Source: Candidatus Woesearchaeota archaeon (GTDB taxonomy: Archaea; Nanobdellota; Nanobdellia; Woesearchaeales; JAFCFN01). From it: 63,167 bases of DNA. The stretch spans positions 1-63,167 of the forward strand of contig JAFCFN010000004.1 of the NCBI GenBank assembly GCA_017608625.1, given 5' to 3'. The position numbers and the translations under genes are program-made. Each line of letters begins with the position of its first letter. Position 1 is the first letter of the stretch. Shown one piece after another: positions 39,793-44,779 of this stretch. The notes below the pieces were generated by a model. The model ran no database searches and was not told the DNA's origin. It saw only the letters and a program-made list of their open reading frames with translations.

Positions 39793-39842
39793 AAACAAAA
39801 ATCAAAAGACTTATAAAAGAAAAATGAACTCTTTTAATCAAG

Positions 39843-39983
39843 CCTCGGTAGCTCAGTAGGTGGAGCACACGGCTGTTATCACAATCTTGTTAAGGATTGT
39901 TTGTGGTAACCGTGCGGTCGGCAGTTCGAGTGACATTAAATTTGCATAGCAAATTTATGGCTTGAGAATCTGCCCCGAGGCGT
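39843..39983 (+). tRNA. tRNA-Asn(GTT) with two introns
   Basis: Acceptor GCCTCGG (39843-39849) pairs with CCGAGGC (39976-39982), discriminator G. The D-stem is GCTC/GAGC. The anticodon stem is CACGG/CCGTG with loop CTGTTA+A and anticodon GTT at 39876-39878. Intron 1 is 39880-39909 (30 nt, canonical 37/38), with an internal CAATC/GATTG hairpin. The T-stem is GGCAG/CTGCC, and its loop TTCGA+AT is split by intron 2, 39931-39968 (38 nt), with AAATTTGC/GCAAATTT inside. Removing both leaves 73 nt. Exact cut sites may shift by a base or two. Confidence 0.9.
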
Positions 39984-40013: not shown

Positions 40014-40180
40014 GGGCTGGTAGCTCAGTCTGGAGAGCAAAGCGAAACAGTCGCTTCGCTCGTGCAATTGGAGCACTACATTGTTTACAACATGTAAACA
40101 AGGTGAGGCTGATAACGTAGCGGTCGCCGGTTCAAAATTGTAGGAATAGTGTCCTGCAATAGAGAATCCGGTCCAGCCCA
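40014..40180 (+). tRNA. tRNA-Ile(GAT) with three introns
   Basis: Acceptor GGGCTGG (40014-40020) pairs with CCAGCCC (40173-40179), discriminator A. Intron 1, 36 nt (about 40035-40070), lies at the D-arm 3' side; GAGC is duplicated, so the position is ambiguous by 4 nt. It folds as GAGCAAAGCGA/TCGCTTCGCTC. Intron 2, 28 nt (40080-40107), interrupts the anticodon stem between positions 30 and 31 and contains TTGTTTACA/TGTAAACAA. Intron 3, 30 nt (40136-40165), splits the T-loop TTCAA+AT and contains ATTGTAGGA/TCCTGCAAT. The spliced product is 73 nt with anticodon stem CTACG/CGTAG and loop CTGATAA, anticodon GAT at 40111-40113. Confidence 0.88.
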
Positions 40181-44193: not shown

Positions 44194-44702
44194 AAATATG
44201 TAAAACAGATTATAAGGCAAAACTGTTTGTAGGAGTTATGTTTTCTGATGAGAAATTATTAAATAAAGTAATTGGTGATCTAAAACAGAAATTTGGTGAA
44301 TTAGAAGAGGATTATTTAGAGTATGACTTTGATTTTACTAATTATTATGAAGAAGAGATGGGCAAGAATTTGAAAAAAAGAATTATTGTTTTTAAAGATT
44401 TGATAAATAGAGAAGAGATTGCTGATATTAAAATCTTTACTAATGAATTGGAGGAGAAATATTCTAAGGACGGTAAAAGGCAAGTGAATTTAGATCCTGG
44501 TTATTTTACAAAAGATCAGTTGTTATTACCATCTGCAAAAGAAAGCGCCTATAAAGTTTATTTGGGGAAAGGCGTTTTTGGACATTTATGCCTTATATTT
44601 AGTGGAAATAAAGCAATAGAAGTTAATAGAACATTCCCTGATTTTAGAACAGAACAAGTCAAAAATTTTTTTTTAGATTTAAAGAATAGATTGCCCCTAT
44701 AG
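44190..44702 (+). CDS. DUF4416 family protein
   Basis: 170 residues with the family pattern: AKLFVGVMFSDEKLLNKVIGDLKQKFGELEEDYLEYDFDFTNYYEEEMGKNLKKRIIVFKDLI, then RQVNLDPGYFTKDQLLLPSAKESAYKVYLGKGVFGHLCLIF. The function is unknown; DUF4416 proteins occur in archaea and some bacteria. The ATG overlaps the helicase stop. The stop codon TAG (44700-44702) lies inside the 5' end of the tRNA-Arg gene, so the mRNA and the tRNA overlap by 10 bp. Confidence 0.82.
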   Translation: MKICKTDYKAKLFVGVMFSDEKLLNKVIGDLKQKFGELEEDYLEYDFDFTNYYEEEMGKNLKKRIIVFKDLINREEIADIKIFTNELEEKYSKDGKRQVNLDPGYFTKDQLLLPSAKESAYKVYLGKGVFGHLCLIFSGNKAIEVNRTFPDFRTEQVKNFFLDLKNRLPL

Positions 44703-44779
44703 TTCAGCTTGGATAGAACACAAGCTTGCGGTTTTTAAGTAAAAAGCTTGTAACCTCGGTTCAAATCCGGGTAGGGGCA
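44693..44779 (+). tRNA. tRNA-Arg(GCG) with a short intron
   Basis: Acceptor GCCCCTA (44693-44699) pairs with TAGGGGC (44772-44778), discriminator A. The D-stem is GTTC/GAAC, the anticodon stem CAAGC/GCTTG and the T-stem CTCGG/CCGGG. Between the anticodon stem halves there are 20 nt where 7 are expected. A 13-nt intron (44732-44744) after position 37 leaves loop TTGCGG+A and anticodon GCG (44728-44730), giving 74 nt. The anticodon depends on this intron choice. Confidence 0.78.

Follow-up and report, generated by a model that had tools for sequence, protein, structure and literature searches.

Positions 40014-40180 on the forward strand of the window, the 63,167-nt stretch of DNA that was analysed as a whole, hold a tRNA-Ile(GAU) gene with four exons and three introns (34, 28 and 30 nt), the unspliced precursor measuring 167 nt and the spliced tRNA 75 nt. 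Two further intron-bearing tRNA genes lie on the same strand:

39842..39982, forward strand: tRNA-Asn(GUU), upstream of tRNA-Ile; introns at 37/38 (39879-39908, 30 nt) and 59/60 (39931-39968, 38 nt)
40014..40033, forward strand: tRNA-Ile exon 1; acceptor 5' strand, D-stem 5' strand and D-loop up to G19
40034..40067, forward strand: tRNA-Ile intron 1, 34 nt, D-loop 19/20; hairpin GAGC-A-AAGCGA / UCGCUU-C-GCUC; central helix with 3/4 pairs
40068..40079, forward strand: tRNA-Ile exon 2; remaining D-arm, position 26 and initial four nt of the anticodon stem
40080..40107, forward strand: tRNA-Ile intron 2, 28 nt, position 30/31; strict bulge-helix-bulge AC/A, CACU:GGUG, AG/G; 4/4 pairs
40108..40136, forward strand: tRNA-Ile exon 3; G31, anticodon loop CTGATAA, anticodon stem 3' strand, variable loop, T-stem 5' strand and TTCAAA
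40137..40166, forward strand: tRNA-Ile intron 3, 30 nt, T-loop 59/60; hairpin AUUGUAGGA/UCCUGCAAU; relaxed motif with 3/4 central pairs
40167..40180, forward strand: tRNA-Ile exon 4; T60, T-stem 3' strand, acceptor 3' strand and discriminator A73; CCA not encoded
44693..44779, forward strand: tRNA-Arg(GCG), from the cloverleaf search; 13-nt intron at 37/38 (44732-44744)

The tRNA-Ile gene was detected by a de novo search for cloverleaves interrupted by bulge-helix-bulge (BHB) introns, to which no hint of the answer was supplied. With a score of 35.7 it was the top match of the 63-kb window, against a maximum of 31.6 among 400 dinucleotide-shuffled 600-mers, and only the tRNA-Asn and tRNA-Arg genes otherwise scored above 31.0; we discarded low-scoring parses, those under about 31.5, as AT-rich noise. 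Neither ARAGORN nor Rfam at its curated gathering threshold reported the locus. ARAGORN labelled 44693-44779 as tRNA-Ala(TGC), a call that we rejected in favour of the tRNA-Arg(GCG) with its 37/38 intron. Removal of the three tRNA-Ile introns restores a complete cloverleaf, and the unspliced RNA is predicted to fold at -70.5 kcal/mol (z = -6.7) into a structure containing the acceptor, D and T stems together with the hairpins of all three introns. The parse and the fold agree with the initial annotation on the coordinates, the GAT anticodon and three introns that each have their own hairpin, and the parse also recovered the 28-nt (30/31) and 30-nt T-loop (59/60) introns at the lengths it had given.

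The genome (645,741 bp, 98.7% complete) belongs by kinship to the Woesearchaeales and shares its genus with Woesearchaeota archaeon Meg22_1012_Bin_87, as fits the DPANN-like character that had been supposed. Our comparison set comprised 39 related genomes from this order (G001-G039), among which G001 is the only congener. G001 and L026 keep the Asn-Ile order, and so does L024, to the extent that N-masked bases let it be read. The tRNA-Asn ortholog of G001 has no introns and the same exon joins, which lends independent support to both joins of the window tRNA-Asn.

Intron boundaries and the spliced tRNA-Ile

A D-arm intron of 36 nt and a 73-nt tRNA had been proposed at the outset; we correct this to an intron of 34 nt within the D-loop, directly after G19, and a 75-nt tRNA. 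In this form it makes a near-complete BHB (3/4 central pairs, a 4-bp inner helix, score +3.5) and yields the D-arm GCTCAGTCTGGTTGGAGC, where relatives have, for example, GCTTAGCCTGGTTGGAGC or GCTTAGCCTGGTGGAGC. A 36-nt intron outside the D-loop, which would leave an 8-nt D-loop and a mature tRNA reading GTCTGGTTGGAGC, closes a 4-bp D-stem too (GCTC:GAGC), yet it forms no BHB in any of its six equivalent placements (-0.4 to -5.1), and it is at odds with all 11 orthologs, whose D-loops of 9-10 nt have bases following G19 as in the 34-nt version. Moreover, a 35-nt intron of a relative (G031, contig L026) occupies exactly the D-loop site of the 34-nt version. We consider the longer intron very improbable and rejected it.

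With the 34-nt intron removed, the spliced tRNA-Ile aligns end to end with the 11 orthologs, five of which are intronless. Our alignment of 12 tRNA-Ile(GAU) sequences from the order, all in spliced form, covers 21 stem pairs and thus 252 cells, every one of which holds a standard pair, and 11 of the 21 pairs have changes on both sides; none of 500 shuffles reached this level, and slid controls were 31-50% paired. The tRNA-Ile of L024 was left out as an ortholog because it enters masked bases. Relative to the congener, the differences in the acceptor, anticodon and T stems of the window gene are compensatory. Introns vary across the same 12 genes: five have none, three have one at 37/38 only, one has one at 59/60 only, one combines 37/38 with 59/60, one combines the D-loop with 37/38, and the window gene has its three (the 59/60 case of G015 was read by eye from the comparison output). 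The unbroken pairing of the stems and the compensatory changes within them are what selection on a tRNA leaves behind.

Heavy interruption, together with invisibility to standard tRNA finders, is what a decaying, silent gene might present. Such decay is nonetheless extremely unlikely here: all 21 stem pairs are intact, with compensatory changes relative to the orthologs, and the interruption is shared with 34 of the 37 tRNA genes decoded from the same genome. Nor was another tRNA-Ile(GAU) found in searches, including BLAST, of the 98.7% complete assembly; since BLAST is weak for broken copies, this excludes an intact second gene firmly and a broken copy less so. The initial annotation had named another intact tRNA-Ile(GAT) as an observation that would speak against the locus, and the searches of the assembly found no such gene. 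Given the kept pairs, the compensatory changes and the lack of a second copy, the locus looks functional and not like a relic, and we regard it as very probably a functional three-intron tRNA-Ile(GAU) gene, the working copy of this genome.

An intron-rich tRNA set

In this genome we decoded 37 tRNA genes, which together hold 72 introns. Three of the genes have no intron, ten have one, twelve two, ten three and two four; the introns lie at 37/38 (22), at 59/60 (24) and elsewhere (26). As the genes were located via Rfam, BLAST of the congener's tRNAs and targeted stretches, the list is incomplete, lacking Tyr, Trp and some Leu, Pro, Ala and Gly isoacceptors. For Phe, Ser(GGA), Ser(GCT), Pro, Lys(TTT), Thr(CGT), Arg(TCT) and Leu(TAG), hand parses that were checked against the source sequence replaced the automatic ones. 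The two four-intron genes are:

G000:C12:1285-1458 (L151:286-459): tRNA-Phe(GAA), four introns
G000:C2:45504-45768 (L150 5369-5105), minus strand: tRNA-Ser(GGA), four introns

Spliced, this tRNA-Phe differs by two bases from that of G011, a member of another family, and the two make up one compensatory T-stem pair. The three-intron tRNA-Ile is typical of its own genome, not exceptional. Rfam recognises between 10 and 43 tRNAs in each of the 39 relatives, mostly near-complete genomes, a number that tracks intron load only roughly; in the complete single-contig genome of G011 it recognises 14, and the hidden ones are again intron-split, often at 59/60. Two side observations concern individual tRNAs. 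An acceptor-stem intron at 3/4 appears to be present in the tRNA-Pro(TGG) of both G000 and G001 (L141, about 1476-1650, and L116), and G000 (L013 1296-1480) and G011 (L220) have a tRNA-Ile(TAT), which would read AUA codons. Such a tRNA-Ile is uncommon, although Nanoarchaeum and Korarchaeum have the same arrangement.

The canonical BHB motif has a central helix of 4 bp flanked by a 3-nt bulge at each splice site. All four central pairs are present in 42 of the 50 introns outside 37/38, as against 10 of the 22 at 37/38, counts that lean upward because intron boundaries were picked partly by BHB score. One of the eight exceptions, the 3/4 intron of tRNA-Pro(TGG) in G000, reaches 4/4 when UGCG from the 5' leader is included. 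Our shuffle control covers the T-loop introns, 20 of whose 24 members have four central pairs, compared with 13% after intron shuffling and re-optimising. T-loop introns typically end in UGAANN, and the UGAA pairs with the near-invariant T-loop UUCG/UUCA, so that a strict BHB is possible in almost any tRNA. As most non-canonical introns have the full 4-bp core, there is no need to suppose broad tolerance for the majority; some tolerance may still be required, since two of the three tRNA-Ile introns, those in the D-loop and at 59/60, have one mismatch each (3/4) next to the 4/4 of the intron at 30/31.

Similar introns also recur in different tRNA genes. Over 32 nt, the T-loop intron of tRNA-Asn matches the intron at 37/38 in tRNA-Ser(TGA) (G000:C8, L062) with 97% identity, and common stretches in the range of 16 to 36 nt link the T-loop introns of Leu(TAA), Pro(TGG) and Ile(TAT), as well as those of Met, Cys, Lys(CTT) and Leu(TAG). 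None of the three tRNA-Ile(GAU) introns matched another decoded intron in this comparison. Related introns appear to have moved between tRNA genes and sites, in a direction and by a mechanism that we infer, and the UGAA pairing with the T-loop may have driven their spread. Transposition of tRNA introns has been described for Thermoproteales (PMC4033280), which likewise have similar introns in different tRNAs but are an unrelated lineage.

The splicing endonuclease and its substrates

One EndA gene is the sole match in the genome to PF01974 or PF02778 at E<=10, and it matches both domains; RtcB is also encoded by one gene. The EndA gene lies at L022 1474-2049 on the minus strand. Its protein (191 aa) is a single unit within the range of about 170-200 aa typical of alpha4 enzymes and has the Tyr-His-Lys triad Y127/H137/K168, invariant in 15 sequences. 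Its best PDB sequence match is Nanoarchaeum equitans alpha, and the monomer model (mean pLDDT 85) has M. jannaschii 1A79 as its best fold match (TM 0.82/0.91). By gene count, sequence and predicted fold, it is probably an M. jannaschii-type alpha enzyme that would act as a homotetramer. Broad-specificity EndAs are marked by loops, a CSL of 15-18 residues or a shorter ASL, with lysine, in the N-terminal domain (PMC12397907). We found neither in this EndA, whose loop region YGDVLENGRLQL has no insertion, and no CSL/ASL insertion in the EndAs of 38 relatives. G035 has two full-length EndA genes (L083, L169), the sole such case among 40 genomes.

Reviews describe homotetrameric alpha4 EndA as cutting canonical BHBs only, and the (alpha-beta)2 and epsilon2 forms as cutting relaxed motifs (PMC6379350, PMC8707768). 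The initial annotation had called for an enzyme with broad BHB tolerance; a single M. jannaschii-type gene without CSL or ASL, of a class described as narrow, and a 4-bp helix in 42/50 non-canonical introns, which such an enzyme should cut, do not support that as it was put. A homotetramer should be able to cleave most introns, their BHBs being strict. More doubtful is the cutting of the relaxed 37/38 introns and of tRNA-Ile introns 1 and 3, each of which has one mismatch, given the description of homotetramers as limited to canonical BHBs. Either this alpha-type EndA is more tolerant than that of M. jannaschii, or it has a partner out of view. An extra, unrecognised subunit or cofactor would turn it into a heteromeric, broad enzyme and leave the gene itself real and spliced; this would accommodate the two tRNA-Ile introns and the 12 of 22 introns at 37/38 without a full 4-bp central helix, and N. 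equitans, the source of the best PDB sequence match, does have a separate structural subunit. We nevertheless think such a partner unlikely, as the 98.7% complete genome has a single PF01974/PF02778 gene even at E<=10, and 38 of the 39 relatives have one or two alpha-type matches and the remaining one has none.

The gene structure, the conservation of the spliced form, the one EndA and one RtcB gene and the similarity among introns can all be read from the DNA itself, and processing might be pictured as follows. The precursor would probably be transcribed together with the upstream tRNA-Asn, and each intron would fold as a hairpin whose base, with neighbouring exon bases, makes the BHB. The lone EndA, acting probably as a homotetramer of the M. 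jannaschii type, would cut both bulges of each intron, and RtcB would ligate the exons to the 75-nt tRNA-Ile. The introns are probably part of a lineage-wide expansion in which UGAA-ended introns build a strict BHB in almost any tRNA.

Known multi-intron tRNAs and significance

Multi-intron archaeal tRNA genes are already known; what is unexpected here is that they occur in this lineage, that two of the genes have four introns and that the enzyme lacks the loops. Thermoproteales are indeed the best-known home of three-intron tRNAs, as had been stated at the outset: tRNA-Pro(UGG) of Pyrobaculum islandicum has introns at 25/26, 37/38 and 56/57 (PMC4090602, PMC8450103), and P. calidifontis, with 71 introns in 46 tRNA genes, is the record in the tRNAscan-SE 2.0 paper, which gives three introns as the most that archaeal tRNA genes hold (PMC8450103). 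Our genome resembles these archaea in its short introns, several per gene (there up to three), at non-canonical sites. It differs in its lineage, which is unrelated, in having 59/60 in the T-loop as the commonest site, in its two four-intron genes and in its single loopless alpha-type EndA, as opposed to the crenarchaeal (alpha-beta)2 EndA with CSL. The Asgard Atabeyarchaeia and Freyarchaeia, again an unrelated host lineage, are similar in that 92-95% of their tRNA genes are interrupted, often at non-canonical sites and more than half with multiple introns, three Asgard genomes holding 228 tRNA introns (PMC11291895). In Cyanidioschyzon merolae, tRNA-Ile(UAU) has introns at 12/13, 37/38 and 53/54 (PMC9602550), with BHB motifs and an EndA without ASL and CSL (PMC6379350), but this is a eukaryote with other sites, another anticodon and a heteromeric EndA. 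ARMAN-2 (Micrarchaeum) is likewise an ultrasmall archaeon with non-canonical tRNA introns, unlike ours cut by an epsilon2 EndA, a three-unit protein with the ASL (Y160-K161) that is absent here (PMC12397907). In the open-licence papers searched we found no earlier account of multi-intron tRNAs in this lineage, and none of a tRNA gene with four introns.

Standard finders miss or mislabel most tRNAs in genomes of this kind, which distorts tRNA counts and genome-quality scores; a spread of 10 to 43 Rfam tRNAs among mostly near-complete relatives means that tRNA-based quality scores mislead in this order. A very intron-rich tRNA set is now placed in a DPANN order for which the open-licence papers searched yielded no such report. 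Relatives rich and poor in recognisable tRNAs share the loopless EndA, and therefore offer a direct test of the co-evolution of loops and intron diversity. Tentatively, and as a possibility that deserves serious weight, we propose that a loopless EndA from a single gene copes with a tRNA intron set that ranks among the densest reported, relaxed motifs and four-intron genes included, so that CSL or ASL would not be required for a high intron load, and that T-loop introns may have spread as portable elements for which the T-loop supplies half of the splice motif.
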